Virus record (IMG/VR): IMGVR_UViG_3300020083_000038
Coordinates: 1-34,877 of that record
Strand: one strand, 5' to 3'
Origin: a virus
DNA: 34,877 bases
Position 1 is the stretch's first letter. Every line of letters begins with the position of its first letter. Under the pieces are notes generated by a model. The model searched no databases. It saw only the letters and a program-made list of their open reading frames with translations, and was not told where the DNA came from. The translations under genes and the position numbers were made by a program. This document shows positions 2,866 to 33,310 of this stretch, piece by piece.

Positions 2866-3225
2866 TCAATTATGTAATACTGCTTGATTATTTGGTCCCA
2901 TTCCATATGCATAAATGTAATACTCTTCATTTAATGGATATTCTTGATTTTCTAACCACCAACTTCTAGGAAACCAATCTTCAACACAATTTATTGCATA
3001 TTCAACGGTTTCAAAGTAACAATAAACTTCACCATATTGCATGAGAGCATGTCTTAAATTATCATCCATTTTCCCATCATAAAACTCCCACACTTCTGCT
3101 GCTTTGTCTGGATGATTTTTAGGACCATCTGCTCGTAAATGAACAACGATTTTTCCAGAAAGATTTGCATGTTGCTCAATCAAATCTAACTCTGTCATTA
3201 TATCACCAAGTCTTAAATCTTTCAT
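2866..3225 (-). CDS. Hypothetical protein, 119 aa
   Basis: Starts MKDLRLGDIMTELDLIEQHA. It is acidic and aromatic-rich, with a C-terminal stretch dense in tyrosine and tryptophan (SWWLENQEYPLNEEYYIYAY). No domain recognised. The ATG at 3225 is preferred over an internal ATG nine codons later because it forms an ATGA overlap with the stop of the tail-fibre-assembly-like gene. Its stop is followed after three bases by the 320-aa gene. The context makes it part of the fibre operon. Confidence 0.65.
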   Translation of the reverse strand: MKDLRLGDIMTELDLIEQHANLSGKIVVHLRADGPKNHPDKAAEVWEFYDGKMDDNLRHALMQYGEVYCYFETVEYAINCVEDWFPRSWWLENQEYPLNEEYYIYAYGMGPNNQAVLHN

Positions 3226-4265
3226 TCCTGACCTCCCATGGTAATATCATTAAGTAAATCGTCTACCTCTTCTTGCACAATCATAGATTGTTTTACCATT
3301 TCCATTATATCATTAACTGTTAATGTAGTATCAATTTTTTGCAATTCTTCATCAACTTGCTGCTCAATTTTAGCAAATTCAGTAAACCACTCCATGTAAA
3401 TGTCAAAATTATCACTAATATTAATTTCTAAAATATCCTTCGGTTCTTGTGTAATATTAAATTCTGCTAATTCTGGGTTAATGATTTGATTTAAAGTTGG
3501 ATATCCTAATTTTGCAAGTCCATTAATAATAGACATTTGAGTAATAAATTTTGGAAAATTCTTAATAAAAACTTCGATGTTTGCTACACCACAAGCGGCA
3601 AAATTTATATCATAAGAGGTCAACACACTTTGTATTAAACCTAATTGATGTTTAGTTTCTGGCGCTACAGGCAATATAACATTCATGTAATCTTGATCAA
3701 CCCATGCTTGTTGAGTTGGTAAATCTCTCAACTCTTGTCTATATGTAACCCAAGCATTTTTTTTCTCCTCTTGTATTGGATAATCAGATAAAAATAAATA
3801 ATCGGTTTGCCTTAAAAAATTATCTCTAGCAGTTAACAAATACGACTTAAGAAAAGATAAATCATGTACATCTCGTTTAATTTCTTCCTTAATATCTTGA
3901 TATTTTTTGATTTTTAATTCAGAAAAAGTATTTAAAATAATTTGAGATACTTCTTTAGCACTATCTAAAGTGGCGCCATCAAAAAAATATGCTTTTTTTT
4001 CTGTTTCTCCTGTGGCAAAATTAAAAATTTCTTTTTCTCTTTCTACAAAATAAGTGCCATCTTCATTAATAACAAAATGAATTAGTCTATCTTTATCAGT
4101 ATGCCAAAACTCTGGCATTTTACTTAGCAATTCTTTTGTATCATCTTTGCTCAGATCAATTTTTTCTGATCTATATATGATATATTGCTGTTTAAATTGA
4201 GAATTTCCAAAATCAGGAGAATCATAAAATGATAGCAATCGCTTTTGAGATGTTTGAGTATTCAT
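3222..4265 (-). CDS. Tail-fibre assembly / chaperone-like protein, 347 aa
   Basis: The centre (about residues 145-185) has the signature seen in phage tail-fibre assembly proteins: ARDNFLRQTDYLFLSDYP, then KKNAWVTYRQELRDLPTQ (an R-D-x-L-x-x-T-D, W-x-x-Y-R-Q-x-L-R-D-L-P pattern). It sits directly downstream of three fibre genes, where such chaperones usually lie. The family is often shorter than 347 aa; here the motif is flanked by an N-terminal region of about 140 residues and a C-terminal acidic, helical region of about 160 residues that I do not recognise. A near-consensus late promoter (4289-4296) lies 24 bases upstream. The match is by motif only. Confidence 0.6.
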   Translation of the reverse strand: MNTQTSQKRLLSFYDSPDFGNSQFKQQYIIYRSEKIDLSKDDTKELLSKMPEFWHTDKDRLIHFVINEDGTYFVEREKEIFNFATGETEKKAYFFDGATLDSAKEVSQIILNTFSELKIKKYQDIKEEIKRDVHDLSFLKSYLLTARDNFLRQTDYLFLSDYPIQEEKKNAWVTYRQELRDLPTQQAWVDQDYMNVILPVAPETKHQLGLIQSVLTSYDINFAACGVANIEVFIKNFPKFITQMSIINGLAKLGYPTLNQIINPELAEFNITQEPKDILEINISDNFDIYMEWFTEFAKIEQQVDEELQKIDTTLTVNDIMEMVKQSMIVQEEVDDLLNDITMGGQE

Positions 4266-4288: not shown

Positions 4289-4296
4289 TATTTATC
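4289..4296 (-). promoter_or_regulatory. Probable T4-type late promoter (GATAAATA)
   Basis: Seven of eight bases match TATAAATA. It lies 24 bases upstream of the ATG at 4265 and overlaps the last codons of the preceding fibre gene. A transcript would begin close to 4282 with a short leader. It is weaker evidence than the two perfect late sites in this window because AT-rich sequence produces such matches by chance. Confidence 0.45.
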
Positions 4297-7200
4297 ACCA
4301 AGCTTTTATCATGTATTTTAATCTAAAGTGTTTTTGATTGATAGGAATTAAATCACTATTTTGTAATGTAAATTTAAGATTACTATTCCATATAGCATTA
4401 GATTGTGTTGTTAATTTTGCTTCTCCTGAAGAAACTATAGAAGAACTGTCAAGTTGATTAAAACTACTAGAAAGAGACTCACTTCCAGCACCACCAGTGC
4501 CTTCCCCGTGCCCAGCGCCTTCAGCACCTACAGTGTCAGAGTTTGGATCAGAAATACCATGCCTATGCGAAAAATTAGTATTTGATACATCATAACCAGC
4601 ATTACCTCCAGAATTCAGTGCTGGTCCTGGCAAAAATTCACCATCTTCTCCTGCAACTGTTTTACAAGATGAAGTGCCTCCAAGGCTGCCTACGGTAGTG
4701 AACCAAGCTTCTTTGGTAGTACTCACGTAACTAAAAGATGTCATAGAGTGACTATGTAATGTAGCACTAGATAAAACGGCATTTGCTAACGTTCCCATAG
4801 TATAGTTTACGGTTTCTGTATATGTTGTAGGAACTTCGGTAATAGTATCATCTCCCCAACCCGTTGTGGTAAATGTCCCTAAAGTAAAAGTAGCAGGAGT
4901 AAGTGAATTAATACCAGCTAAACCGCCTGATGGTCCCCCTTGAGTTGGAGGAGGTAATTGATCTAATTTTTCATAATTATATTGTCCGCCCGTCGATCCA
5001 ACAATATTAATAGCGCCGCCAGCAGAGCCCAGAGGATCATACCTAGGCACTACACTAGCTGAAGATGAATTATTATTAACACTCCCAGTGCCCATCAATT
5101 TTTTACCAGCATTATTTGGTATACCAAAATTACCAGAAACAGGATTAGGTAAAGTATTAGTAATTGGCGGTAAATATCCACTAGTAATATAAGTTGCTAC
5201 AATATTGCCTCCAAAAACATTTCCCATTATTCTTGCTAAATCTGGGCAATGTGAAGCATTTAATAACTGAGCACCAGTAGCGGGGCGAGTTGATGTTGCA
5301 GAATGATACCCCAAAGGAACGAATCCAGGAAATCTAGTATCATACATTCCTTGCGAAGTTCCTGTTGCTTGCTTTAACCACGAAGTTGTATCATCACCAG
5401 TTTTCCCTTCAGTATACCCATCTGGTTTTGGTATACAAACTACTGTCCCTATTGCTGCCCCAGTTCTTGATGCTAACTCCGAATATTGTGCTTTTTTTAA
5501 ATCAGCAGATTGGATTGAAAATGCAATTTCTGCAGTTGGAGTAGGATTCCCAGCTGGCGAAATAACAATTTTTTGTAAACCACTTCTAAAATACTCATGT
5601 GAATCTTGATTACTTAATGTAATAATGCATCTAAATTTATGACCATTAATAGATGTAGTGACTGCAGCTGGAGTAATGACTAATTCGTTACTTGTTTCTC
5701 CACTATATCCTGATAAAGAAACTATATCAGACCATGAACTGCCAGTATTTCTTTGCCACTGAAATGAAGGAGCACCACCAGTTTGATAGTTATTTAAATT
5801 TAAACGTATTTCATTACCAGCTTTTTCCACTAAAGTTGCTGGACCAGCATTATAATAAAATCTTCTGTCAACAGTAACTATGCATACAGCACTATAAAAA
5901 ATGCCAGGGATACTACCATCCGTTGAAATTACTTTACATCTAATTTGAATTCCACTCTGCGATCTATTAAATGGTTGGGGAATGAAAGACGCCTCATCTG
6001 GATCTGAGGATAGATAACCAGAAGATGGTCCATAATTAATCCAGTTAGCACCAGAATCAACGCTATATTGCCATTGATATGTAGTTGGTGTTGATATTGT
6101 TGGATTAGCAACAATGCTAAAATTATATGGGAAAGAAATAGAATCTCCAGCTATACCTGAAGCTGGTTGCTGCCCTTCTAATATTTTCAGTGTTGGGGGA
6201 AAGTTAGTAATGATACTATAATTTAAAGAAGTTACATACAATCTAGCAACGTTAGTATATCTTATTGTGCCGCCTGCACTTGTTAATTTACAACGATAGT
6301 GTCCAGCATCAGATGCAGATATAGATCCTTTTGTATAAGTAGCACTAGTAGCACCAGCGATATTATTCCATGTAGCAGCACTTGGATTACTGGCATTGTA
6401 ATTGTTACTTTTTTCCCATTGATAAGTTATAGCACCTAAACTTGCAGATTGAGCAATTACTGTCCATGTTAAACTTTGAAACTCAAGCAAATATTGATCA
6501 TTTAAACTGCTAATAGATGTAAAAGAATCTATTGATACCTTCAGAATAGCAGATGAACTAGTAACAGAAGATAAAGTATCCGTTGTATTCACAACACATC
6601 GAAATTCAAAATTATTCATTGATAATGTTACATTATTAATAATTAATAAATTAGTTGTTGCGCCATTTATTTGTGCATTATTTGTTAAATTAATCCATGT
6701 CGCTGAGGAAGGAGTTTTATATTGCCATTGATAAGAAATGGTTAAAGTAGATGTACTTGCAATGGCAGCTACTGCAAAAGAAGCAACTTTGTTTACGAAA
6801 ACCACGGATTGTGCTGGTTGAGAAGAAATATACAACCAATTAAAAACATTTAATATTGCGCCAGTTGAATTTGGAGAATAGTATGGAAGATTATTTGCGT
6901 TTGCAGCACTAATTTCTGCTCTGTAGTAAGCACCATTATCAATAGTTCTTTTAAGCGGTGGAGTAACATAAGTTGAAGTGGATTGACCAATTACTAAATT
7001 ACCAACATTATTCCAAACACTACTATTATCTGTAGATTCGACTACAGTTTTAATAGCTTGTTTAAAAGTATTATTAGTGACAAATGCTGCGTGATTATCC
7101 GCTGCCGATCCATTATTATTTAAACTTATATAAGTATATGGTTGAGCATTTGCAGTCATAGCAGCAGTAAGTTGTGTCATATAATAAGGTTGCCCAGAAT

Positions 7201-9241
7201 TTGGATTGCCAGGAATAACACCAGTAGGATCATCTAATGCTTGCAAATATGTTATTGGAGCTAGATGCCCAGTAACATAAGGTTGCATAGATCTCTGATA
7301 ATATTGATTGGACGTAAGGGGTGTTGCATTTGCGGTGCCATAAGCAGTAAACAATTTATTACAAGATATATTTACACTATAAACTGCTTCTACCGCAGAG
7401 CAAGTAAGATCTAGACGAATAGGACCAGGAGCATTTGCTACCGCACCATTAGTTTGTTCTAAAGTATTCAATTTGTGAACTAAAGATCCACCTTGAGAAT
7501 GCCCAAACATAAAAACTTTATTAATAGTTTTTGTTATACCATTGGACGACATAAAACCGTTTAAATTATTTTTTGCCCACAAAAGTGCTGCTCTAGCATA
7601 TGGGAGATTATCACCAAATTTAAAATTAGATAATTCTGCTGCTGTTAATAAATTAATGTTTTGAGCTACCGTTACAGCATCTTGCGGATATGCTACACAG
7701 AAAATAATTTTATCTTTAATACCAACATTATTTTTCATAATACTCATCATATTATTAGCGGATTGTAAAATTGTAGTTGCGCTATCACTAATAGTGGGAT
7801 GATAGCAAACAACAACATCAATACTAGATGCAGATAATCCAGTAGGCACCCATAAAACACCCCTTACTGGATAACTAGTGCCACTAATTGTATATGACTG
7901 CGTGGAGCTAATAGTAATATCTTGTCCTGATATATTAGCTGATATATCAGGATTTTTTCTTTGCCACTGAATAGTAATTGGGAATCCGTTTGTTTGAGCA
8001 GTGCCTTCCAGGGGCGTTTCAGCAGGAGATTCTAATAAAGAAACAAGAAATGTAGCATTTTGCACTGCTTCTATATAAGCATCTCTGTCGGGAATATCTC
8101 CATATATGTCTTCGACAACAGAAAGACTGGAAACAACATGTTGATCAACAACAACAGATTGCTCAATAATTACAGTAGCGATGTCAGTATAAACTGAAGT
8201 TTCTCCAGAAGTGCCTTCTATCTGACAATAAAATTTTAATCCATGACCATTAACATCAGACCCCACCCAATTTACCTCGGTCAAATTTAAAGTCTTTTGT
8301 TGTGCTCCTATTGCAGTAAATTTTTGATCAACTCGACCATCATTGAATGGAGAAAAACTTATAGGACCTATGATATTTGGGTCTGTAATTGCATAATACC
8401 ATTGATAACTCAAATTACTAAAAGATCCTGCAGAACTAGTCGCATCTACAGATAATCTTAATTTACCAGTAGTAGTTGGTTGCGATGGTAAATATTTAAA
8501 ACAAGTTGTTATGTCAGATCCAGTTCCTGGTTGTTTTGTTATTGTTATTGAAGATGATATTAAAACAACCGCTGATGAAGAAGTGCTAGGTGAAGTTGCT
8601 AAACTACTAGTAGCAATTACTCTATACCTTCTTTGATTATATTCAGTTGTAACACTACTTTTTATAAATGTCGATGCTTTTACAAACGCTCCAGTTGTAC
8701 CTGCTGGTATCACGGATTCCGTTAGACTACTATATTGACTAGCAGGAACGTTAGACCAAGTTATACCACCATTATCGCTAAATTGCCATTGTAATGATAT
8801 TGTGCTGACGTTAGTTTGAGTTGCTGAGTTTGATGGAGTTAAAGAACACTCTACCACCATAGAAAGATTACTCCCCGCGTTAACACTATAAGAAGGTTCT
8901 AATGGAGTAACAAAAACTAATGATACAGCGGTAGTTACTGTTACAACCGCGCCATTGGCATCTGGACCATATTCAGTATAACTACTTAAACCGCCAGTGC
9001 CAATAGTGTAAACTTTTACTCTGTAATAATCTCCATTATATGCTAACGTTAAAGCTGGAGTCGTATAATTAGTATAAATTTCTCCAGGAAGATCTTGCCA
9101 GATTATACCATCATCAGATTTTTGCCATTGATAATTTAAACTTTGTCCTAAACTAGAAGATGCATTTACAAAAAAAGTTATTACTCCATTTTCGGGAGAG
9201 ACAGCAGAGGTAGGCGTAAAACTATTGATTGAAATAGACAT
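4295..9241 (-). CDS. Large tail fibre: Ig-like domains with inserted alpha/beta-hydrolase and C-terminal collar-like tip
   Basis: A 1648-aa protein with no signal peptide. At least seven Ig-like modules are visible from the QWQ (strand C), W and Y-R/R-C (strand F) pattern, with cores near residues 38, 151, 279, 425, 838, 940, 1055 and 1160. Between about residues 431 and 741 lies an esterase/depolymerase-like alpha/beta hydrolase: nucleophile elbow GHSQGG (Ser582), Asp670/671 and His717 as likely triad. Residues about 1260-1385 resemble a phage tail-collar domain (IGTVVCIPKPDGY, NVFGG), followed by a Gly/Ser/His-rich tip ending YMIKAW. It is probably a receptor-binding fibre whose hydrolase trims a cell-surface ester or polysaccharide. 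It follows two collar-type fibre genes, three bases after the last. The substrate is not predictable. Confidence 0.75.
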   Translation of the reverse strand: MSISINSFTPTSAVSPENGVITFFVNASSSLGQSLNYQWQKSDDGIIWQDLPGEIYTNYTTPALTLAYNGDYYRVKVYTIGTGGLSSYTEYGPDANGAVVTVTTAVSLVFVTPLEPSYSVNAGSNLSMVVECSLTPSNSATQTNVSTISLQWQFSDNGGITWSNVPASQYSSLTESVIPAGTTGAFVKASTFIKSSVTTEYNQRRYRVIATSSLATSPSTSSSAVVLISSSITITKQPGTGSDITTCFKYLPSQPTTTGKLRLSVDATSSAGSFSNLSYQWYYAITDPNIIGPISFSPFNDGRVDQKFTAIGAQQKTLNLTEVNWVGSDVNGHGLKFYCQIEGTSGETSVYTDIATVIIEQSVVVDQHVVSSLSVVEDIYGDIPDRDAYIEAVQNATFLVSLLESPAETPLEGTAQTNGFPITIQWQRKNPDISANISGQDITISSTQSYTISGTSYPVRGVLWVPTGLSASSIDVVVCYHPTISDSATTILQSANNMMSIMKNNVGIKDKIIFCVAYPQDAVTVAQNINLLTAAELSNFKFGDNLPYARAALLWAKNNLNGFMSSNGITKTINKVFMFGHSQGGSLVHKLNTLEQTNGAVANAPGPIRLDLTCSAVEAVYSVNISCNKLFTAYGTANATPLTSNQYYQRSMQPYVTGHLAPITYLQALDDPTGVIPGNPNSGQPYYMTQLTAAMTANAQPYTYISLNNNGSAADNHAAFVTNNTFKQAIKTVVESTDNSSVWNNVGNLVIGQSTSTYVTPPLKRTIDNGAYYRAEISAANANNLPYYSPNSTGAILNVFNWLYISSQPAQSVVFVNKVASFAVAAIASTSTLTISYQWQYKTPSSATWINLTNNAQINGATTNLLIINNVTLSMNNFEFRCVVNTTDTLSSVTSSSAILKVSIDSFTSISSLNDQYLLEFQSLTWTVIAQSASLGAITYQWEKSNNYNASNPSAATWNNIAGATSATYTKGSISASDAGHYRCKLTSAGGTIRYTNVARLYVTSLNYSIITNFPPTLKILEGQQPASGIAGDSISFPYNFSIVANPTISTPTTYQWQYSVDSGANWINYGPSSGYLSSDPDEASFIPQPFNRSQSGIQIRCKVISTDGSIPGIFYSAVCIVTVDRRFYYNAGPATLVEKAGNEIRLNLNNYQTGGAPSFQWQRNTGSSWSDIVSLSGYSGETSNELVITPAAVTTSINGHKFRCIITLSNQDSHEYFRSGLQKIVISPAGNPTPTAEIAFSIQSADLKKAQYSELASRTGAAIGTVVCIPKPDGYTEGKTGDDTTSWLKQATGTSQGMYDTRFPGFVPLGYHSATSTRPATGAQLLNASHCPDLARIMGNVFGGNIVATYITSGYLPPITNTLPNPVSGNFGIPNNAGKKLMGTGSVNNNSSSASVVPRYDPLGSAGGAINIVGSTGGQYNYEKLDQLPPPTQGGPSGGLAGINSLTPATFTLGTFTTTGWGDDTITEVPTTYTETVNYTMGTLANAVLSSATLHSHSMTSFSYVSTTKEAWFTTVGSLGGTSSCKTVAGEDGEFLPGPALNSGGNAGYDVSNTNFSHRHGISDPNSDTVGAEGAGHGEGTGGAGSESLSSSFNQLDSSSIVSSGEAKLTTQSNAIWNSNLKFTLQNSDLIPINQKHFRLKYMIKAW
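7019..7951 (-). other. Alpha/beta-hydrolase (esterase-like) domain inserted within an Ig-like domain
   Basis: About 310 residues lie between the strand-C half of an Ig-like domain (ITIQWQRKNPDIS) and its second half (SVWNNVGN, then DNGAYYRAEIS). The flanking halves align with the intact first Ig domain (NYQWQKSDDGI then IWQDLPG and NGDYYRVKVY). The insert has the GHSQGG elbow at 7487-7504, a preceding strand DVVVCYHP as expected for the oxyanion region, and a late histidine in DNHAAF. The overall look is of secreted esterase/PHB-depolymerase-type hydrolases; this is a motif-based assignment. Confidence 0.65.
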
Positions 9242-9244
9242 TTT

Positions 9245-10165
9245 TTAATATTTAATTAGATATTCACATAATATAAACATAGGAGATATCGCGTCTATTT
9301 TTGTTGTGCTGCCAGTATTTAATTTAACTGTAGTTGAAAGAGAAGCAGACGGGATATTTATTGCTGCCATACTACCAGATTTACTTTGACTACTAATTTT
9401 TATTCCAGCATTTCCATGCCTATGTGTGGTGCCTGCGAGGACGCCGATTTCTTCTGCTGAATTGCCAACAGGGATTAATGTAACTGGTCCACATTGAGAT
9501 CCAAAACTGGCACTCCTGTAACAAGCTCCCCAATAACGAGAATTATATTTCCACCCGCCAGTGTTACAGTCACCTTGTGCTGCATTGCTTAATTGTGCCA
9601 TAGTAGCAAAGTGACCGTGTGGTAATATTTGACCTTCATCAACAGTTACTGAGTTAGTTGTTGAAGGTCCTGTAGCGGTCCACTGACCAGACATAGTTAA
9701 ATTATGAGATGGAAGATTAAAGTTTCCACTATATGTGAAAAGTATCTCGTCATCAGTTGCACTTAAAACAACGGTTATCCCTGCTTTAGTAACTATAGCG
9801 GAAGTTGAAGTAGCTTGAGGGACTGTTAAATTACTATATGTTCCTGAGTTAGTACCCGCACTGATATACTTAGATCCCAAATCTGGTAATTGAAAAGTGC
9901 CGCCTGTTCCGTCATCATCAGCATCTTGTAATATAGTGCCTTCCTTTCTATAGAGGCATTGTTGACCAACACCAACAATTGCTGCTAATTGTGGAAATTG
10001 ATCTGCAGATAAAATTTGTCCCCTACATCTTAAAAATCCAGCTGGAATATTTTCACTATATTGAGGATCTGAAGCACTATTTGTTGATAAATCCCTAAAA
10101 AAAGGAAAAATTGACCCCGTAGGTCCTCCATATTTTCCTTTCTGAAAAGAATAAGTGGTTGCCAT
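9245..10165 (-). CDS. Tail-collar-type fibre protein, 306 aa
   Basis: The N-terminal half has the layout of a phage tail-collar domain: GPTGSIFPFF, then IPAGFLRCRGQILSADQFP, an AAIVGVG segment and GGTFQLPDLGSKYI (about residues 14-105). The middle is Ser/Thr/Gly-rich beta structure. The C-terminal region has histidine/glycine motifs (LPHGHFA, THRHGNAGI) typical of fibre tips, and the protein ends FILCEYLIKY, similar to the ends of both neighbouring fibre proteins. It lies one base after the previous gene and three before the next. A perfect late promoter site (10220-10227) lies 54 bases upstream of its ATG. Likely a short fibre or receptor-binding subunit; the host receptor is unknown. Confidence 0.75.
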   Translation of the reverse strand: MATTYSFQKGKYGGPTGSIFPFFRDLSTNSASDPQYSENIPAGFLRCRGQILSADQFPQLAAIVGVGQQCLYRKEGTILQDADDDGTGGTFQLPDLGSKYISAGTNSGTYSNLTVPQATSTSAIVTKAGITVVLSATDDEILFTYSGNFNLPSHNLTMSGQWTATGPSTTNSVTVDEGQILPHGHFATMAQLSNAAQGDCNTGGWKYNSRYWGACYRSASFGSQCGPVTLIPVGNSAEEIGVLAGTTHRHGNAGIKISSQSKSGSMAAINIPSASLSTTVKLNTGSTTKIDAISPMFILCEYLIKY

Positions 10166-10166
10166 G

Positions 10167-11204
10167 TTAATATGCTCTGATGATGAAAATCATACTTAAA
10201 TTAGCAGTTGCCGTACTGATATTTATAGTTGCCACATCAGGAGGTGCGGCGTTAATTGTAATTGAATTTGAATTGACATCATAAAAAGTATAATCAGAAA
10301 CAACTGTTACGTTACATTTAAATTTTGTGTCTGGAGAATTATGCGTATGTGCAGACAAATCAGACCAACTTCTACCGTCGGCAGATAAACTAGAAGCAAG
10401 ATTGTAAACCCCGCCGCCTTGCACAGCATACATATCCCCACCAGTATAACCATTGCCATTATCAGTCATTCCACTAGCGTTAGATTTGGGGTCAGACCCG
10501 CCTTTACAAATAGTTTTATCTGCCTTAGAAGGAACATTTCTATTTCCTAAAGTATTTGATGCCACACCGCCTTTACTATTAAAAGTACAGGTGCTGTTTC
10601 TCCCGCCTGAATTGGCTGAGCATTCTCTGCCGCCAGATCGAAAGGAATTACCATCTGTATCTCCCTCAAAACTTGTTGTGTGATTATGATATTTTTGATG
10701 TCTATCACTCAATTTTCTACCATTGATAGAATAACTAGTAGCAAATGTTCCAGCAGTAAATTCAATTTCTTTAACACTGGCAACTAATTTTGGTTTATTA
10801 GTAGGATTAATAAATGATGCAATAACATCTATAGTAGAACTTCCATCAGTAGAATTTGACACATTTATATTTTCACCAATATTAGTCCAATATGGATCGC
10901 TACTTTTTGCCGTGGTTGATGGTTTTGATGGTGTATAAGCAGATAAAGAAGAGTAATGTCCTGGATATATATCCATTACTCCCCTATCCTCAGTTATTTC
11001 TGGTATTTTAAATGTAGATCCAGCTGTGCCGCCATAAACGTTACCTATTATCTTATACAATAACGGATATTTTGTAATTTGTATTACTGCACCATTACAA
11101 AAATCCCACCCCAAAGGAATAGTATCTGGCGCTCCAGACCAAGGAACTATCGTTCCTATTGGGAGACCTTGCATATGTCGTAATTTATTATATGTAATTG
11201 ACAC
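10167..11204 (-). CDS. Tail-collar-type fibre protein, 345 aa, GTG start
   Basis: Residues about 12-75 are a textbook phage tail-collar domain: GLPIGTIVPWSGAPDTIPLG, GWDFCNGA, YPLLYKIIGNVYGG and STFKIPE. The rest is a Gly/Ser/Asn-rich beta region with a histidine-containing KYHNHTTSF and AHTHNSPDTKF, ending MIFIIRAY. The start is GTG at 11204, supported by a strong GGAGG ribosome site six bases away; the nearby ATG at 11206 is out of frame. It follows the giant fibre gene with one base between stop and start. Probably a short tail fibre or fibre-tip subunit involved in adsorption. Confidence 0.8.
   Translation of the reverse strand: MSITYNKLRHMQGLPIGTIVPWSGAPDTIPLGWDFCNGAVIQITKYPLLYKIIGNVYGGTAGSTFKIPEITEDRGVMDIYPGHYSSLSAYTPSKPSTTAKSSDPYWTNIGENINVSNSTDGSSTIDVIASFINPTNKPKLVASVKEIEFTAGTFATSYSINGRKLSDRHQKYHNHTTSFEGDTDGNSFRSGGRECSANSGGRNSTCTFNSKGGVASNTLGNRNVPSKADKTICKGGSDPKSNASGMTDNGNGYTGGDMYAVQGGGVYNLASSLSADGRSWSDLSAHTHNSPDTKFKCNVTVVSDYTFYDVNSNSITINAAPPDVATINISTATANLSMIFIIRAY
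10220..10227 (-). promoter_or_regulatory. T4-type late promoter (CTATAAATA)
   Basis: A perfect TATAAATA on the minus strand, preceded by C, lies inside the last codons of the 345-aa collar gene. It is 54 bases upstream of the ATG of the 306-aa collar gene. This would give a late transcript starting near 10213 for the 306-aa gene and the Ig/esterase fibre behind it. Confidence 0.6.
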
Positions 11205-11205
11205 A

Positions 11206-14200
11206 TTAAACCTCCGTTAACCACCAACCTCTATTGTCAGAAGGAATTGCTGTAACTCCATCCGAATCATATTCTCCAACAAATAATAGACCAAAGGCAG
11301 CATTTGGTGTATTTACTAATAATTGACCAAATCCACCATCTTGATTTCCTTGTATTGCAACTCCAGCTGGAGCATTAACAATAAGAGTAACATTAAATCT
11401 CAAAGCTCCACCAAAATCAATAAATCTAATTAAATCTCCAGTCTCAGCATTATTTGGTAAGGTTAAAGTTAGATTAGAAGATGGTTTTACTAGATAATTT
11501 ATGTTGGAAATAAGAGGTGTTGTTACTATGCCACTATTATTAGTAATGTAAATTGTTTTTCTACCGCCATTTTTATTATAGAAATTGGTTTTACCAAATG
11601 CATCAATAGAAGCATCTTGTTTAATTTTATATGGTTTTGCGCCACTAATACCTAAGTTTGTTACTTCAAGACTTACTACAGAGGCAGAAGGAGTTGCAGA
11701 AGATGCACCTTTTACTTGTAAATGTCTTCCTACAACAGTATCACCTGTTTGTGCATCAACAGTAAATGTATCCGTGCCGCCTAGGGTATTCTCAACAGTA
11801 AAATCATCACCAACATGTAGAGTACCAGCAATTTTAGTATTACCAGAAGCACCGAGAACTTCAAAAGCAATATTAGAAGCAGCATCTGTTCTTCCTTTAT
11901 CAAAATTACCAGAAGTATAGAAAGAGTCTTTAAATATTTTTAAATTAGCGCCATCATACAATTTAGTATTACCACTTGCCGATTCAACATAGAATTTAGG
12001 AATACTTCCATTGGTAATAACAAAATATTGTTTTCCTGGAGTGGTTATATCAGTGTTTCCACTTAATTCAATAGAGTTATATACTTTAAGATTTCCACCA
12101 CCAGTAGTCGTTGGACTGCTTCCAGTAGCAGTGCTAGAATTAACACCATCATCATAACCAATAGTAACATCGCCAAGAGCAAAAGTATCGCCAGTAGTAG
12201 ATATTACAGAGAATGTGGTTTTTGGTGTTAATGGGACTGAAGCAGTGCCAAAATTACCGTTTGTAATAACTAGTGACTGTGCATCTGCGGTATTGATAGC
12301 AGTAATTTTAACATATTCTTCTGATAAAGTGCCTTTATTTAATCTAAGTAAATCATCATTAGCAAAGGTGCCAGTAAAATCAGACAAATTAACGCTTGTT
12401 GAAGTTGCTGTTACAGGATTCGGGAAAATAAAGGCAGCATTTTCTTGTTTTACTAATTTAACAATTTGTGTGTTATCGGCATGTGTTACAGGTTGAGTGC
12501 CTTCTTGCCCTCTTGCCACATTAACAAGATATGGTTTAGTTGGAGAAGGAATACTTGTTGTTTTTACAATTTCCGTGCCAATTAATAAGAAATCTGCAAT
12601 ATTAATTCCTTGTGGATTATTAACTTCTAATACTGTTGCAGTAGCAGATGTAAGTGCAGCACCTTGATTATCAAGACTGGTAAATGCCAGAATTAACACT
12701 GCATTTCCTGCATCAGTAGCAGTTCCAACTAAACCAATTGTATGAGTAGTAGAAAGATCACCTAATGTCGATAAAGTAAATCCTTGCTCATCTTTATCTT
12801 TAATAAAATATGTAGTCGTTGTATTTACGTTGCTTAAATTACCAACACTCTGGAATTTAACAGCATTACCTTCCGTGAAATAATGCTTATATCCAGTGAA
12901 GAAAGTAATATTGATTGCCGAAGCTAATAATTTATTACTAACTACAGTAGCTAACGAGACGCCAGGAGCTATTTGAGAATTATATTGGTAATAGTCAACA
13001 TTTAGATTTGCTAGACTTCCAGATACTTGATTTAAACCAATACCATTTAAAACAACTCCAGTAGCATTTGTTGTTGTTAAATTTGCAGCTGTATTTGAAT
13101 ATGTAAAGGTTTTATTTCCAGTAACAGTTATAACTACATCAGTAACTGTTTCAAAAGATTCTACACTACATTTAACAGAAACAGAATTGCCAGTAGTTAA
13201 ATTATGATCATCAATCGTTGTGATTGTAGCAATATTACTACTTCTAGAGACCCTTGAAATTTCAATAGTTCCTAAGACGTTTCTATTTACACCAACTGAA
13301 GAATTTCTATTTCCTCCATGCTGCACAACATCAGCTTCAAGAGTTGTTTTTCCAAAAACACGCAACCCATTTTTAATAACAGATTCTCCAGCAACACCAC
13401 CTAATTCAACACTACCAGCACTAGCACCAATTTTTACAGTTGTTGCAACATTAGGGAATAAATTAACTGTCGTAGCTTGAGTAGTTACTGTCAGAGTATT
13501 TGTATTACTATCACCACGTAATTCCATATTACCATCAAATATGGATTGATAGTTTCTAACGCGGAAAATACTATCAGATGGTCTAGCATATGCTCCACCA
13601 ATTGTAACAAATGACTTATAAGTGTTATTTGTATTTCCTACCGTAGCAATATTGACTGTCGAATCAGTAGAAGAAGTATGAAGATTTAACGTTGTTTGTC
13701 CAGTAGCGCCAGTGCCAATATTTAATGTTTGCCCAGAAGCAACATTTCCAATATTAAGTGTTTGTGCAGTTGTTGCGAGATTACCAACATTTATAGTCGT
13801 AGAATAACCACCTAAAGATAATGTAGTTGTTGTTGGTTGGTTTGCTACCGTAAATGCTGCAGAAGTAGATCTAATGTCACCACCATTTACATCAATATCT
13901 GTTTGGAAAGTAAAGTCACCAGTGATTCTTGCATCGCCAGAAACAACAAAGTTTTTATCTAATGCGCCATCACCCACATTAATACCAACTCTGCCTTCTG
14001 CTGGGTTTGCAGTTGGTCCTGGTGTAGGTAGTGGTAGCGTAGAAATTCTAAATGTAGCAGTAGTATCAGGATTATTACTATCTCCACCGACAATAAATGC
14101 TTTATTCGTATTCGAGAAAGTTGCTAGATCATTAAAACTAGTTTGTAATCTTCCACTAATAAATGCATTACCAACCACATCTAGATTTGCCCTTGGATCG

Positions 14201-17200
14201 GTTGTAGTTGTTACATATCCAACATTCCAATCGGCAGAATTAGTTCTAGATACAGTGTTGATACCTAGTCTGTAATCTCCATATGCACTAGTTTTAGTTC
14301 TTAATGCTTCTGCCCCAACAACTCCAACTTCTTTCCACTGAGAATTAGATCTCGCTATTTCAATCGTTGGTTGGACAATTGGCGCCACAGAAGAAATGAA
14401 AGGAGGACTACCAGTTAAATTAGCCTCTGATGCTCTAGTAGTTAATATATAAACATACCCATTTGATTCAGAATATTCATATCCTTCAGTAATATTATCA
14501 TAAACAGTATGCACTCCATTCAACACTGATAATCTATCAATTGCACCAGTAATACGAATTTGCGAACTTCTGGTTATATTTAAAGAAGATCCTGGGTTTG
14601 TGCTACTAAAATTGACTTTTCCTGTTTGGAAAATAAGTTTGACTATATTTAAATTTGGATAAAATTGAACTCCTGTTATATCAATGCTAGCTTCCTGACC
14701 TGGAGGTGCAGTTAATCTATAAGCAGTAAATGTATTAGCATAAACCCAACCAAGAGATCCAGAGAATCCAACCTCAGATCCTTTAAAAATTACATCACCA
14801 GAAAGAGGCACACTAGATCCAAACTGTATTGTTTGAGTAGGACTGATTCTAGCTCTTGTTCCTGAAGTATCTTGATTTGGTGTATTATTTGTAATTGCTG
14901 TGCGGAATGAATAACGCTGAGTGCCGCGTGTATTCATATCAAAAATAGCAGCTCTTACTCTATTTTTATCAATTATAATATCACCTGCTTTTGTGGTATC
15001 AAGCAATTGATCATCATCACCAGGAAGAAGTGCTTGTCTATTACCAGGACGGGAGACAATCCTCAACGATGGAGGAGTCATTACAGCATTAAACTCTGGA
15101 TCTACATTGATTTCTACAGGAGAATTAAAGAAATTCTTTAGATTAGGTGGAGCGTTGAGAGTAATAATATTTTCAAATGTTACAGGATCTTCAAATACTG
15201 TAACCAAACTGCTTAAATTACCACCATCTGCTTCATCTTCTTCTAGAATTATTGGATCAATAAAAGATTCCTCGCCTGTAATGGCATTAATTTTCTTATT
15301 GCCAATATACAATTCACCATTAGAGTTAATACCAGTATAGAATACAATACCACCATCTTGCTTCTTAGATTGCGCGTAAAAATCTTGATCTGCGGTTAAA
15401 ATAACTGTTTGCCTTACAGGGAATCCAGTAGAGTAGTTACCAGGACCGAAACCAAGGTATTCAAACGTATGGTTACCAGCACGAGCAATCGATGGTCTAC
15501 GAAGCTCAACATAGAGTCTTTGCTCTAGCGGATATACAGAATCACCAGCAATTGGGATTAATCTTTCTTCTGCTCCAGATGCAGCTGCTCCAGATTTAGC
15601 TTCAATTTTATTAGAAGAATTAGCAAAAGTATAGTTACCAGATCCTGGATCTTTTACAAAGTCTAATATTGCTTCTTTAGTTAGTGAATTTTTTGCATCA
15701 TTAATAACAACAGCCCCATGGACATAGTTATCAGCAGCGCATACAGATGCTGGAGGATCTAAAATAGTTGCATCTTGAAGTCCCCCCAAATCATTAGATC
15801 CATCATACTGGAATAGTAATGGATCATTTTTAAATGCCAACGGATATAATCTAGATACTGGTTGACTAAACTTAAACTTTCTAAAGTTTTGACCAATACC
15901 AGATCCAGTTGGATAAGGAGAAATATCACCACGAATTGCAGTTAGATAGTAGACTCCTTCTTGTTGCCTTGGGATTCTTCTTTGAATTTCATCAATTTTG
16001 TAAATATAATAAGAGTTTTCTAATTCTTTAACATCTTCGACACTAACAACTCTATATTGTCTTGCAGCATCATCAGTAATAACATCACCTGGAGTTACGG
16101 TATAAACATTTGCTGCTTCTACAGCATATAAGTATTCTTTTTTATCTTCTTTACCATCATTTGGTCTAGAAATTAATTCTGCTGTTACATCTGCTTGACC
16201 TGCAATTTCCTGTCTAATAAACGTTTGTGTTTTTTCATCAAAATCTATTTCTCCTTCAACATCTTTAAGAATAAGATAATTGAATATTTGTGTGCCACCT
16301 TCAACTGGCACTGTGCCAAACCAGGAATGCACGGTAGCAGATCCAGCGTAAGCACCATACCATGTAACTTTTTCATTTACAATGAATTCTCCATTTCCGC
16401 CTTGAGGTTGAGCAACTTTAATTGTTGCAAATCTTTTTGCTTTTAATGATTCTACATCCAATCCATGATCAAAAACTACCAATTCCATGTAATCGCCAAC
16501 TTTTTTGGCAGATTGAATGGTAAAAGAAATATTTGAAGCAGTATTAGTGCCAGAAATTCTTTTCTTGTTTGTGGGATTATATGGGTCGTAATCTATCGCT
16601 GCCTGCGTAGACGATGCGGGCAATCCTAATCTTTTAGGATTTTGTACACCAGACTCAAAGAAAGTTGCGTCTTTTGGATCATTTTGGGCAACTGGTTTTA
16701 AAAGAATTCTTTGTGATATAAGTTTTCTAGTTTCATCTGTGCGAATTTTCATCACAAATCCATTAATAGGATCTCTTACATCATCACGATATTCTGGAAT
16801 TACATAACGGAATCGATAAACTTTATCCGATTTATCTCTAGCATCATCTGCTCTATATAAGAAAGAATCAGGAGTTTTCTCTGGTTTATTAGCATAGGAA
16901 GATCCAAGGTTGGGGTCAGCAAGATTTAATCTATCAAGGATTTCGTTAGTAGAAATAAGAGTTCTTAAGAACCAACCAGATTGCACTGGGTCATATCCAA
17001 ATGGACTTCTCTTTCTATTAGCAAATACTTGGAAAGAGAAAGTAAATGGATAATTAAACTGCACAGCATTTTGACGAGTAATCGCATCCTGCTCATTCAA
17101 ATAAATTGAAAACTGATTATTTGTAGTATAAGTTGCTGGGCGACCAACAAAATAATAACGATTAATTTCCAACCTGCTGCCACTCGTTTTAGCTGGTAGC

Positions 17201-20200
17201 GTGTTTAGTGCAGCACCAGTTGCTTTGCCATTGACAAGATTTTCTTCTAATGGATAAAAATAAACTTTCTGCACTTGAGCGCCAGTGATGCCCGTGTCAA
17301 AGATATGGTTGGTAGTTGTTTGGAATACTCTAGATGAAGCAAGAGAACAAGTATAGCGATGCAAATCGTAATTTACATCCGTCAGATATTGATGAACTTC
17401 TACTTGAATGTCAGGACTCATTCCCTCGGTTTCAGAAGAATAAATGTAATTACCAGCAGCGGCATTTTCTGTGCTGGTTGCTAACATGAATACCTGATTA
17501 TCATTAAATTGAGATGTGACACCACCTTGAGAATAATCGTAAGGAGCGGTAATTTTACCAGGAGCAATTATATAATATTTTTTATTGCTGTCAAATCCTC
17601 TAGGAAGTCTTATTAATCCTTTATTAACATTAACTGGTTTCCCAGTAATAGAATCTCTTCTAGCAACAGCAACTAATCTAACGGGAGTGCCAGTTTCTAA
17701 GTTGTGTGGATTAGCACCAGCAACACGGAATAATGTTGCTCTTTGTGCAAATGAGGATGTATTTACTAATTGAGAAACCAGTGGTTCTGCATCAACGCCA
17801 TTACGAATAATGCTGTCAATCACACGCATTTTTTCAATAATAGCATCTTTAGTGCTGGCACATTTGTTGTCTGGTGTTGCAGTATCATTACTAATAGTAT
17901 TATCTCTCTGAGGTCTTTGTCTCTCAACATATTCGCTACTACCAAAAGTTTTTGGTGGTAGTGGTGCGGTATTGTTTAAAGATGTAATAAGAATATCAAA
18001 TTCTGTTGTAATAGTATAAGCAACATCAGCACAGACAGGAACACCAGCTGTTGTTGTATCAATCGTAGGATCAATTTGATAATTTAATGTATTACCAGGA
18101 GTTTTTACATATAGTGGGTCTGTAGTTGTGCCATCACCTGTTCTCCAGTTACGCATTGCAAGAATAGCAAGATCTCTTGCTTTTTTAAATGCGTATACGC
18201 TAATGTCTAATTCCCCAGTAAGTGATTGAACTCCAGAATTATATTTAAGTGTTGGATATAGATAATTACCATTTTGTAGTTTTGTAATTAGAATTCCAAA
18301 TAGTGCATTGATTTCGTTTCTTACATCAAGATAAGCATTGGGATTATCATTTGGAATATTTGGTCCTGGAACACCTAATTCTGCTGGTCCCTCAGGAATT
18401 TCAAGATCTCTTACATTTAATTGATTAGTTACTGCTTTGAAGCATAAATTTCTTGCTTCTTCAAATGCAGTAACTGACTGAGTAATCTCGCCTGCTAATC
18501 CATTATTAATTAAAGTATTACCAGTGCTATCAAAATATGATTTAGTTGCAGTAATAATATTGTAGTTTGCACCTATTGCTAAGTCCTCTGCAATAGCATC
18601 AACAACAATTCCAATATCTCTCTTACATTTTTCTTGGAATATAGGAGCACTACCATAATTGATAATTGGTAGTGCTGGATTTTGTTGAGTTGCCGTTACA
18701 AGATCGCCTTGTCGAATTCTTGCAAAAATAAGACTTCCGAGAGTATCTAAAGTTTGTTTTACGTTAGCACAAGATTGAGTATCAGTATTATTAGTAGTAT
18801 TGCCTGAAGTGCCAAATACGCTAACACCAGATTCAACAGCACCTGGATTAGGATCACCTGTAATTGTCAGATCTTTTGTAAATAATTGGTTTGTGATTGC
18901 TTTCTTCATCTCGGCAATCGCAGCAGTAAATCCAGTAATGGATTGATCTTCTTCATTTTGAAGTCCTGCATTAATCCATGCTTGCTCAACTGTAGATACT
19001 GTTACAATTACGTCGTCTACAATATTTGTGCCGCCAATAGATCCGCCAGGAATAGTTAAGGTATTTCCAACAGCATACCTATAACCCCCATTTGAAATAG
19101 TGACTGTTGAAATAGCACCACTAGCTCCTCTAGCTACAGTAAATGTAGCATTAGATCCAGAGGATGTAGTTGTAGTTGCAACACCACTATAAGTTTTATT
19201 TGCTTTTGTTGATAGAGTTGTGCCTGCAGTTTTAGTAAATGTTAAAATTTTACCGTTTACTTTATTTGCAATAAAATATTGACGAATAAAATCAATAGAG
19301 TAAGAATTTCCTAATGTAGTTAAATCAGTAGAGACTGCATCTATAAACATGCCAATATCTCTTTTGCATTTTGCTTCACCAGCAATAGCGCCTCCAGGAT
19401 AGGAGAAATTTGGATAACTGATCGCAATCTGTGCTGCTGCTGCATTAACAATATATTGCTTATTTTGCTGGATTAAGCGGTAAGAATCTTTATATCTTGA
19501 ATACACATTGGTTTGTGCATCGCCACCATTTGTAAATCCAGGTCCACCATAGTAAAAATCAGGATAATCGATTGCAAGTTTAGCAGCTGCTTTATCAACA
19601 ATTTCTCTTTTATTTGCAAGAATTAAATTCTTTGAAATAGAATAACGCTCTGCAGCATCAATATATCTTTCTGTTGCCGTTACAATACCAGAATTACCAA
19701 AGTTGCCAAGATCTTGTACAACTCCATCTAGAATATATTTAATATCTCTTTTACATTTATCATCGTTTGGCACTGAAGTTGTTGGATATTGTGCTTTAGC
19801 AAGATTAAGTGCTTCTTGTGCAATAAACTCTTTGTTAAGATTGATAAGATTACCAGCATCTAAATTTCTACCAGATGAAGTAGCAAACTTACCCTGAGTT
19901 AATTCAAAGTTAAGTCTGACGCCGCCTGCCGCAGGACCAGTTGCTGTAATGGTAGCGGTAGCATTGACATCATCAGTATCATTTGTATTACCAAGTGTAA
20001 ACTGAGTAGTGCTGATAATTTTTCTTACATAACTTCCCGCAGGAATTGGATTTGTTTGTCCTGCAATAACTGTAGCAGTTACCTTCATGCCTTCAACAAT
20101 ACCAATTGTGGTAATTCCACTAGGCACCGTTACTGTTGCTTGATTAATAAAAGTGGAGCAATGTTTAATATAAAAATTCCAATTACGCATTGCTGCAACA

Positions 20201-30340: not shown

Positions 30341-33310
30341 TTACACTAAGTCTGGATATAAAAAGTCAGCAAATATCATAGCACTGGTTTTTGCTGATGG
30401 AATAGCAGATCCAAATGATCCTTCAGCAGTAGCAGATGCTCCTGATGGTTGAGCAGGTGGCATTACAACTGCGGTGCTAGAAGAACTAGAAGATGAATCT
30501 GCTCGTGGTCTGGTGCCCCCGCCAGTTTCTGGTGGTTTTCGTGGAGCTGGTTTTGGTTTGTAAGGTTTGATTCCTTGTTCTTTATTTAACCTCGCTGCAA
30601 GATTTTTTGCTAGTGCTTCTTGCTTTGCTTTTCTTTCTGCTGTTGCTTCCTTCTTACCCCAAACTCGCCACCATGGATTACTGCCAACTGCTTGATCACT
30701 TACACCCATATTAACCCATCTACCATCCACTTTTTGCACACCCAATCTTGATCGTTGTGCTGCTGCTGCATCTGCTTTTCGTTTGGCTGCTGCTTGCCTT
30801 GCTTTCCTGGTATTTTCCTGATTTTGTCGCTGGCGACTGGATGTACCACCACTCGCCATTCCCAGCCCTTCCATCTGTTCTCGGTATCTATTACCACCAA
30901 ATTTATTACCATTTATTGTTGCATTGTCCCTAGCATTATTTAACCAACTATCAACTCTTGCTTTTATATTCCACCATTCTGGCTCTTTTTTACCAGTCAT
31001 TCCAGATTGTGCTTTACTTATCATTCCACGTTGAGCAACTCGTTGGACACTTGGATCTGGTAATGCAGCAACCGCAGGGGCAACGGCAGCTGCTCCTCTT
31101 GAAGATGATATAGCGGGAGTTGGTGGAGTACTTAACAACTCTGTTGGTCTTGATATCATCATTATATCTTTATGACCAACAGGAATAGTATTTTCTGTTA
31201 CTTTATTTGTTAGGGAATTTCTTGTGCCACCTTGATTTCCGCCAACATAAGTTATGATTCCATTTTCATTTTTGGTTACAATTGCAACATGATTCGCTTC
31301 ATCATTATTATCATAATCAAATACAATAACATCATCGGGTTGGGCATCTTTTGCGTCAACTTTTGTTCCCCATGCTGGTGTACCTGCCAACTTACTAGCT
31401 TTATCTGATCTATAGGCATCAGCCCAAGCGGAATTAGGTGGTTTGTAATTGGATTTTGATAACTGTGTGGCAACCCATTGAGCACACCAAGGTTGTGAAA
31501 CACTATCACCCGCTACGCCAGGAGTGCCCACGATTGCATTTGGTACTCCCGCTTTAGTTAACACTGCATCTGCAGCATCCATGTCTGCATCAGCTTGTTG
31601 CGCTGTTTGTCCTACAGCGGCTGTTGCTGAAGATGCTACACTACCAGAACCAGGGGGAGTTGTGCTCTTTCCACTTCCCCCTTTTCCTTTACCACCTGCA
31701 ATTTTTATCCCATCAAATAGAGATGTCATGAAATCCTTAGCGTCTTTATCTGGTTTAACCTTACCAAACTGTGCATTACCAATAGCAGAAGTGAATGTTA
31801 GATTAGAGATACCAAATTCTTTCGATGCTTTTCTGATGTTTTGTTTTACTTGGTCGCCAACTGTGCCGCTGTCTGTCTTACCTAACATCCCAGCAGAGAC
31901 ACCGAGAATCATAGCACCAACAGTATCGATAGCAGTGTCACCAGGATTGGTTGCTGCTGACTTACCAAACATTTCCTTGCCTTCACTGCGATTCAATGGT
32001 ATAACACTTTGACCAGGAGATAACATTCCTTTGGTTGGATTATCATATAGTCCTGGTGCTAGTCCACCCTTAGACAGTGGCACTGCTGATGGAACTATAC
32101 CACCTTCAGACATCTTGCCCGCCATTTCTTTCGTAGCAGATTCATTGCCATAGATATTTCCAAACCCACCTTTTTGGTCTGGAATAACATTCATAAAATC
32201 AATACGATTCATCCACCCACGAGAGTGTTCTCTAATACGAGTGTCCATCTTAGCAAGATTATATGCTTGCTCTTCTTTTTGTTCTGGACTTAAGAAAGGA
32301 TTTCTAAGTGCTTCAATAGCATATCTAAATGGAGCTCCCCCCACATCCATAGCAACGCCAAGTGTTTTTCCTATTTCACCAACTCCAGTTTGTCCAACCT
32401 GAAGTGCTTCATCTAAGAAAGTATTTTCTCCCCTTGCTTTTTTCTCATCAATTGATTTTCTTCTATCTTTCAATGACTGGTCGCCCATTTTACCAAGCTG
32501 AAACATGCCTTCGCCGCCAGCGGACATAGCGAGTCCAACACCACCCACAATTGCTGCTGCACCAGCACCACCAATACCAGCTGCATTTCCAGCACCTTTC
32601 CCAGCACCAAGCAGATTGCGAATCTGCATAAAGCTTTCTACACCTTCCAATCCACCCAATAACATATCAAATAGACCGCCGCCGCCTCCGCCTCCGCCAC
32701 CACCCTCAGCATCATTTGCAGGATCAACTTCAGTGGGTCCAGAAACACCAGCAGAATCTGTAGTTTTTTCTAATTTCTTTTCTGCTCTGGCAAATTTAGC
32801 TTCTTCTAATGCTTTCCTTCTTAATTCAGTTTGTGCATCAATACTATCTTTTATAACAGTTAAAGTGCTTGACGCTCTGGTAACTTCTCCTAAATTTTCT
32901 CCTGCCAAAGACTTGACGCCATCTAATTTTGATACCATGAGACTGGTATCTTTTAGAATAGCAGTGAATCCACCAGCAATAAACTCTTTTAGTTTTGCTT
33001 TGCCCTCTCCTCCACCATCACCTCCCGTAGGTGGTTTAACTTGCTGGTCACTATCAGATTTTTTATTCCAATCAAATTGCTTTGCCCAATTTGATTTAGC
33101 TTTCTTAGATTTGATTGGGTTGAATTGATTTGCTAATGAAGATTTAAACAGCGACCCTTTCTTAGGTGTCTCCCCCTTCTCAGCTGCTTTTTCTCTTTGC
33201 TCTTTAGCATCTTCTGCAGCATCACGAATCTTCGCACCAATAGACGCAGCAATATTTAATACTGATGGACCTTGCCCTGCCTCTTGTGGTGTGGATGTTC
33301 CTGCTGCCAT
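30341..33310 (-). CDS. Tail protein with CHAP-type peptidase/amidase domain, 989 aa
   Basis: The N-terminal third is charged and low-complexity, with a polyglycine run (about 205-215) and a Gly/Ala-rich hydrophobic stretch (about 240-265) as in tape-measure or internal tail proteins; repeated GG motifs (MSEGGIVPSAVPLSKGG) follow. Residues about 600-720 form a CHAP/NlpC-like domain: catalytic Cys609 in QPWCAQWVATQL, His674 in EANHVAIVTKN, and PDDVIVFDYDNND between. It should cleave peptide or amide bonds in peptidoglycan during DNA entry. The C-terminal part is basic and Gln/Ala/Lys-rich with a serine run near 945. It lies 23 bases after a lysozyme-bearing tail gene, so two peptidoglycan-cutting activities are adjacent. 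Whether it is the tape measure or a hub component is not settled by sequence. Confidence 0.65.
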   Translation of the reverse strand: MAAGTSTPQEAGQGPSVLNIAASIGAKIRDAAEDAKEQREKAAEKGETPKKGSLFKSSLANQFNPIKSKKAKSNWAKQFDWNKKSDSDQQVKPPTGGDGGGEGKAKLKEFIAGGFTAILKDTSLMVSKLDGVKSLAGENLGEVTRASSTLTVIKDSIDAQTELRRKALEEAKFARAEKKLEKTTDSAGVSGPTEVDPANDAEGGGGGGGGGGLFDMLLGGLEGVESFMQIRNLLGAGKGAGNAAGIGGAGAAAIVGGVGLAMSAGGEGMFQLGKMGDQSLKDRRKSIDEKKARGENTFLDEALQVGQTGVGEIGKTLGVAMDVGGAPFRYAIEALRNPFLSPEQKEEQAYNLAKMDTRIREHSRGWMNRIDFMNVIPDQKGGFGNIYGNESATKEMAGKMSEGGIVPSAVPLSKGGLAPGLYDNPTKGMLSPGQSVIPLNRSEGKEMFGKSAATNPGDTAIDTVGAMILGVSAGMLGKTDSGTVGDQVKQNIRKASKEFGISNLTFTSAIGNAQFGKVKPDKDAKDFMTSLFDGIKIAGGKGKGGSGKSTTPPGSGSVASSATAAVGQTAQQADADMDAADAVLTKAGVPNAIVGTPGVAGDSVSQPWCAQWVATQLSKSNYKPPNSAWADAYRSDKASKLAGTPAWGTKVDAKDAQPDDVIVFDYDNNDEANHVAIVTKNENGIITYVGGNQGGTRNSLTNKVTENTIPVGHKDIMMISRPTELLSTPPTPAISSSRGAAAVAPAVAALPDPSVQRVAQRGMISKAQSGMTGKKEPEWWNIKARVDSWLNNARDNATINGNKFGGNRYREQMEGLGMASGGTSSRQRQNQENTRKARQAAAKRKADAAAAQRSRLGVQKVDGRWVNMGVSDQAVGSNPWWRVWGKKEATAERKAKQEALAKNLAARLNKEQGIKPYKPKPAPRKPPETGGGTRPRADSSSSSSSTAVVMPPAQPSGASATAEGSFGSAIPSAKTSAMIFADFLYPDLV

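Follow-up and report, generated by a model that had tools for sequence, protein, structure and literature searches.

The tail fibre and its neighbourhood

The window, that is the whole stretch of 34,877 nucleotides of viral DNA analyzed here, encodes on its minus strand a long Ig-repeat tail fibre flanked by genes for other tail proteins (Table 1). A PHROG scan assigned the fibre to PHROG 613/27200/3995/4069, which are families of virion and tail proteins with Ig-like domains. One of the neighbouring tail proteins is 33-34% identical over its full length to proteins of T4-type cyanophages; both the origin of the window from a cyanophage-like T4-type phage and the assignment of the insert carrier as a fibre-type virion protein are supported. 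The same fibre is found in two contigs from other metagenomes, L003 and L004, with 7 and 3 nucleotide differences out of 4947, respectively. Elsewhere in the window, residues 999-1046 of a 3757-residue virion protein (11206-22479, minus strand) partially match the Phycobilisome family PF00502 above the cut-off (E 9.1e-9, 35.9 bits), and by its sequence this part is possibly a captured piece of a host light-harvesting protein. A CHAP (peptidoglycan hydrolase) domain is located at residues 604-692 of a 989-residue tail-region protein (30341-33310, minus strand; E 1.2e-7).

Table 1. Features of the window, ordered by position, and the virion protein families that carry the hydrolase in other contigs (L numbers).
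Feature	Position or contigs	Strand	Basis
Tail (fibre) assembly chaperone, 347 aa, fibre neighbour	3222..4265	-	phrog_4697 E 8.9e-27
Tail fibre / collar-type virion protein of 1648 aa with Ig repeats, carrier of the insert	4295..9241	-	single uninterrupted ORF
Ig-like domain 4, C-terminal half (residues 741-800)	6842..7021	-	SVWNNVGN...YYRAEIS
Inserted putative alpha/beta-hydrolase cassette, residues 431-740, canonical order	7022..7951	-	homologues, predicted structure, absence from L054/L056/L059
His717, predicted catalytic base (NHAAF)	7091..7093	-	model residue 352, behind predicted beta8 (337-342)
Asp671, predicted catalytic acid	7229..7231	-	model residue 306, behind predicted beta7 (298-303)
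Cys614 to Cys627, family cysteine pair	7361..7402	-	both columns Cys in 35/35 copies
Ser582, predicted nucleophile of GHSQGG (580-585)	7496..7498	-	model residue 217, immediately behind predicted beta5 (207-215)
Ig-like domain 4, N-terminal half (residues 374-430)	7952..8122	-	strand C (ITIQWQRKN) at its end
Tail collar protein, 306 aa, fibre neighbour	9245..10165	-	phrog_4714 E 4.6e-45
Short tail fibre protein, 345 aa, fibre neighbour	10167..11204	-	phrog_4591 E 1e-30
phrog_529 long tail fibre, two sites	L010/L042/L050/L111 and L017		
phrog_4406/2885 wedge proteins	L013, L016, L021, L105		
phrog_4924/30655 short tail fibres	L020, L035, L120		
Protease-containing fibres	L007, L108, L119		
phrog_6942 fibres	L102, L114		
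phrog_457 T7-type tail tubular protein	L037		

An insert in the fourth Ig-like domain

Eight QW-type Ig-like repeats were detected in the fibre, and one of these eight has a gap of about 310 residues between the strands C and C' (W). The distance from the tryptophan of QWQ to the next tryptophan is roughly 9-17 residues in most of the other repeats and 317 residues in domain 4. The landmarks listed in a preliminary description of this DNA were recovered at residues 425-427 (QWQ), 580-585 (GHSQGG), 715-720 (DNHAAF), 741-748 (SVWNNVGN) and 769-778 (NGAYYRAEIS), and the region 7019-7951 singled out there corresponds to residues 431-741 of the fibre.

An Ig profile was built from the domains Ig5 and Ig6 of six orthologous fibres. 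With this profile domain 4 scored 21.7 bits (E 1.7e-4 at Z=20000) when its halves were joined, the N-terminal half alone 6.0 bits and the C-terminal half alone 14.0 bits; shuffled controls stayed at 7.6 bits or below, and the alignment passes through QWQ and W with the gap in between. Because the joined halves fit one Ig profile, the insert interrupts a single Ig-like domain, and its proposed position between strand C and the following W strand, in the C-C' loop of the fourth domain, is confirmed at the level of sequence. Structure prediction, which had been suggested as a check, supported the hydrolase fold (see below) but gave no confident fold for the Ig part: the Ig flanks reach a pLDDT of ~30-50 in the sole model, so that the assignment to one Ig domain rests on the profile and not on structure.

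The insert is most likely a serine hydrolase

The insert, whose family-aligned core comprises residues 439-738, was modelled with AlphaFold from a 28-row alignment. The model contains an alpha/beta-hydrolase core with a central beta-sheet and a nucleophile elbow, with a pLDDT of about 85-97 in the core. Its best match among solved structures was 9ble with a VIA Z of 18.8 over 202 residues, and all 1000 chains aligned gave a Z of at least 8. Dienelactone hydrolases, feruloyl/cinnamoyl esterases, lipases, cutinases and acylaminoacyl peptidases are tied or close as fold neighbours; dienelactone hydrolases, esterases, lipases and cutinases all lie within about 2.4 Z units and the ranking names no subfamily. 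The placement of Ser582, Asp671 and His717 in the model after beta5, beta7 and beta8 supports the canonical triad arrangement of this fold. All three residues are invariant in the 35 distinct family copies, which does not apply to the adjoining Asp670. The earlier claim of a hydrolase with Ser-Asp-His is thus borne out by the predicted fold, and the acid, which had been left unplaced, is assigned to Asp671. The paired cysteines at positions 614 and 627 possibly form a disulfide, as judged from their conservation.

Among seven close pairs of family copies dN/dS is 0.19-0.45, and the catalytic triad is kept by purifying selection. At the presumed oxyanion loop, residues 481-482 of the window copy (7796-7801) are His-Pro, in contrast to His-Gly in nearly all relatives, so that a changed activity of this copy is conceivable. 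Pro-Gly is found at this place in L087, the nearest relative of the window copy. Taken from alignment and model, the insert is most likely a self-contained serine alpha/beta-hydrolase of the esterase type, and we infer that the family consists of active ester hydrolases, with caution for the window copy.

Neither Pfam nor NCBIfam nor PHROGs contained a family that matched the insert at the cut-off; the comparison of the insert alone with hydrolase families, also suggested in the preliminary description, returned Hydrolase_4 as best Pfam match at E 0.18, which is below the cut-off. As the curated Pfam cut-off was not reached, membership in the dienelactone hydrolase family was rejected and what is left is a likeness of fold. 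A sequence search of the PDB with the insert gave chance-level matches only.

Filled and empty sites in orthologous fibres

Scans of a viral collection with hydrolase queries recovered the family in about 47 further viral contigs, of which many are near-duplicates; one isolate, Synechococcus phage S-SCSM1, was added by a protein search. Relatives of the window insert are 42-53% identical over most or all of its length. Together with the predicted core and the empty orthologous sites described below, these relatives place the insert beyond chance. A search of plasmids with the hydrolase gave no match and two scans of cellular genome contigs yielded no true relative; one match to a Sphingobacteriales MAG is 50 residues long and limited to the nucleophile region of a different hydrolase.

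The hydrolase occupies three different positions in three orthologous fibres, the remaining parts of which are collinear. It is located in the C-C' loop of Ig4 in the window, in the C-C' loop of Ig7 in L005, where the joined flanks score 22.4 bits with the Ig profile, and in a later loop of domain 4 in L009. The orthologous fibres L054, L056 and L059 are without the hydrolase. In L009, residues 1-489 and 789-1614 correspond to residues 1-496 and 497-1322 of the empty L054 with about 80% identity, and the flanking DNA is 84-94% identical; the C-terminal half of domain 4 of the window aligns to L054 from residue 744 on. The orthologous empty domain of L054/L056/L059/L005 does not score as Ig with our profile and a profile-profile comparison of empty domain 4 with Ig5/6 gave no signal, so that we do not claim the host domain of L009 as Ig. 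The junction in L009 is the only one with good DNA similarity, and neither terminal repeats nor a target-site duplication beyond chance were found there; therefore, a dedicated transposition machinery is not indicated.

A similar situation exists in two orthologous baseplate-type giant wedge proteins, L013 and L016, which contain the hydrolase at different sites and are each empty where the other is filled. One hydrolase copy per record was counted in 32 of 32 searched records, including the complete 229-kb genome of S-SCSM1 and a 250-kb contig, and since most records are metagenomic fragments this count is a lower bound. The contigs L025 and L026, which come from different metagenomes and are near-identical to the window, stop at one and the same base of the hydrolase, behind residue 480; this looks like a branch of the assembly graph.

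Carriers outside the Ig fibres

PHROG scans, and for L050 the identity to L010, assigned the other carriers to the families listed in Table 1. An empty state of the L010 carrier is present in the named isolates S-SRM01 and P-SSM2, and the L037 carrier has its empty counterpart in the tail tube protein of S-RIP1, compared with which L037 has 298 residues more. The deposited record of S-RIP1 (L060, HQ317388.1) has this homologue at about 519, unannotated and broken by frame changes. In L094 an Ig-like domain with a weak profile score (17.1 bits) has the hydrolase between its strands B and C. Insertion into an Ig scaffold, which had been proposed for the fibre, therefore holds for the window but is nothing special, since the hydrolase also resides in other Ig domains, in other loops and in virion proteins without Ig. 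From these sequence comparisons it could be shown that the hydrolase is inserted in frame at many sites in many host proteins, without disturbing the host protein.

Circular permutation of the hydrolase

For a comparison of chain orders the hydrolase was divided into three parts: A includes the nucleophile and reaches to the end of strand 6, B contains the Asp and C the His. The canonical order A-B-C is present in the window, in L005, L010, L050, L111 and L120 and in the divergent members, the order B-C-A in 18 of 35 rows and the order C-A-B in S-SCSM1, L012 and L014. Permuted copies share a conserved linker which joins the old ends, for example AIRNAVGSTNPGGTITNQTYDI of L009. The four best VIA matches of the permuted L009 model were all engineered circularly permuted HaloTag7 proteins (Z 12.2-12.7, 197-210 residues), compared with a Z of 10.0 over 147 residues for the best non-permuted chain. 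Judged by part order and predicted structure, L009-type members qualify as natural circular permutants of an alpha/beta-hydrolase and the window copy is canonical.

In a phylogenetic tree the canonical order appears in both deep groups, B-C-A on L011 and in a main group, and C-A-B nested within the B-C-A group. Because well-supported canonical branches separate L011 from the main B-C-A group, this order arose twice or reverted once; the tree was midpoint-rooted, so that the polarity of all order changes is presumptive. At three sites both kinds of copies occupy the same place: one site of the phrog_529 fibre is canonical in L010, L050 and L111 and permuted in L042, one of the short tail fibre is canonical in L120 and permuted in L020, and one of the wedge protein is canonical in L105 and permuted in L021. 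These sites are either insertion hot spots or places where the permutation happened in situ.

Probable virion location and a possible route of spread

The hydrolase protein of S-SCSM1 is labelled as virion protein in its GenBank record, and 45 virion proteins of this phage were identified by mass spectrometry (PMC9602691). As several other structural genes of the same record are without this label, it probably marks detection by mass spectrometry. It is likely that the hydrolase is an in-frame and mobile virion esterase cassette of marine, mostly cyanophage-like phages. The N and C termini of the domain presumably lie close together, so that nearly every external virion protein would have a surface loop which can accept it. 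One enzyme per particle type would be enough, and the carrier would be interchangeable because the enzyme needs only exposure. On contact, the hydrolase would remove acyl groups or cleave ester lipids, the presumed substrates, at the cyanobacterial surface and in this way may aid adsorption or penetration, as with phage esterase tailspikes. A tandem duplication of the domain, of which the outer parts were then lost, probably gave rise to the permuted forms, and the cassettes may reach new hosts by illegitimate recombination, which is the presumed transfer mechanism and accounts most simply for the movement. Going one step further, we tentatively put forward as possible that the hydrolase is a mobile module which, as an in-frame cassette and once in each genome, has come to lie in loops of virion proteins from at least eight unrelated families, via an intermediate that forgets its ends (tandem duplicate or circle) and so gives rise to circular permutants; the catalytic module of the particle would then not depend on any one tail protein.

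The hydrolase domain could also be catalytically dead in the fibre and act as a binding module or spacer, in line with the proline that replaces glycine beside the conserved histidine in the window copy. Nevertheless, the triad residues are retained in every copy although these diverge to less than 50% identity, the low dN/dS values argue for constraint and a spacer would not retain a triad, so that we consider a dead domain quite improbable. According to another reading, the enzyme is active, but as a lipase/phospholipase or in the manner of a cutinase; it would open the outer membrane at DNA entry and would not be a glycan O-deacylase. Lipases, cutinases and feruloyl/cinnamoyl esterases are indeed among the structural neighbours at similar Z, and the baseplate and tail tubular carriers sit close to the membrane; on the other hand, many carriers are long or short tail fibres, for which contact with surface glycans is expected, and the fold neighbours do not settle the substrate. 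We regard a lipase of this kind as rather unlikely.

Concerning the origin of the pattern, vertical inheritance from one ancestral fibre with many losses, and with differing positions due to shuffling of host domains, is in accordance with the domain exchange known from Ig-repeat proteins and with the strong clustering of the topology labels on the tree. It is very unlikely nonetheless, as the Ig domains of L005 and L009 are collinear with those of the window and the insert alone is displaced, which excludes vertical inheritance as the only explanation for the fibre, and as the carriers include proteins without detectable common ancestry. Chimeric assembly of metagenome reads as the source of insertions or permutations seems hardly conceivable. 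Most copies do come from assembled metagenomes, and the common end of L025 and L026 inside the hydrolase could be taken as a hint in this direction, but near-identical copies occur in independent metagenomes (L003/L004; L017/L018/L019; L020-L024), the isolate S-SCSM1 has a permuted copy, the reading frames are intact throughout and the linker of permuted copies is conserved; on these grounds an assembly artefact was rejected.

Relation to known systems and significance

Compared with the alpha/beta-hydrolase superfamily (dienelactone-hydrolase-like proteins, feruloyl/cinnamoyl esterases, cutinases, the catalytic domain of acylaminoacyl peptidase), the favoured virion esterase cassette shares the predicted fold, the nucleophile elbow and the Ser-Asp-His placement, and differs in that it was found here only in virion proteins and with natural permutants. 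Phages are not mentioned in a recent survey of alpha/beta-hydrolases, in which circular permutation is described for peripheral strands only (PMC11878206). A precedent for a virion esterase that is essential for infection is gp63.1 of phage G7C (PMC10743462). Such esterase tailspikes probably have a like role, namely a virion-borne esterase acting on surface glycan during adsorption; the comparison is one of role, and the G7C-type esterase is part of a dedicated tail spike, whereas the module described here is spliced into loops of unrelated structural proteins. The engineered HaloTag7 permutants (8b6p, 8b6n, 6u2m, 8b6o) are likewise alpha/beta-hydrolases with a permuted chain, but they are man-made dehalogenases, in contrast to the natural phage forms, which are probably esterases. 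Domain mosaicism of phage receptor-binding proteins is known and shares the shuffling of enzymatic domains among tail proteins, with no mention of circular permutation (PMC10684548); unlike in this mosaicism, the phage hydrolase enters the middle of other domains and does so also in permuted order. The closest described protein of an isolate, QFG06499 of S-SCSM1, belongs to the same hydrolase family with about 44% identity over 218 residues, but it is a small protein of 368 residues with the order C-A-B and is annotated only as tail fibre.

The hydrolase fold, virion esterases and domain shuffling of tail proteins are already known. What appears to be new is that one enzyme module lies inside many virion proteins which are unrelated to one another, that its chain naturally has three orders and that empty alleles exist; this novelty is provisional and refers to the open-access literature, in which no description of the module was found.

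An enzyme of a phage tail is usually regarded as a permanent part of one particular spike or fibre. Here, one enzyme, most likely an esterase, has long fibres, Ig fibres, baseplate proteins and a tail tube protein as its carriers; its chain occurs in three orders, and closely related empty alleles exist. Filled and empty alleles represent natural before/after pairs for the insertion of a whole enzyme into a virion protein, and the junctions list loops of virion proteins in which an insert of 300 residues is tolerated. Furthermore, the allele pairs bear on the natural origin of circular permutation and on a possible need for an esterase in cyanophage adsorption.
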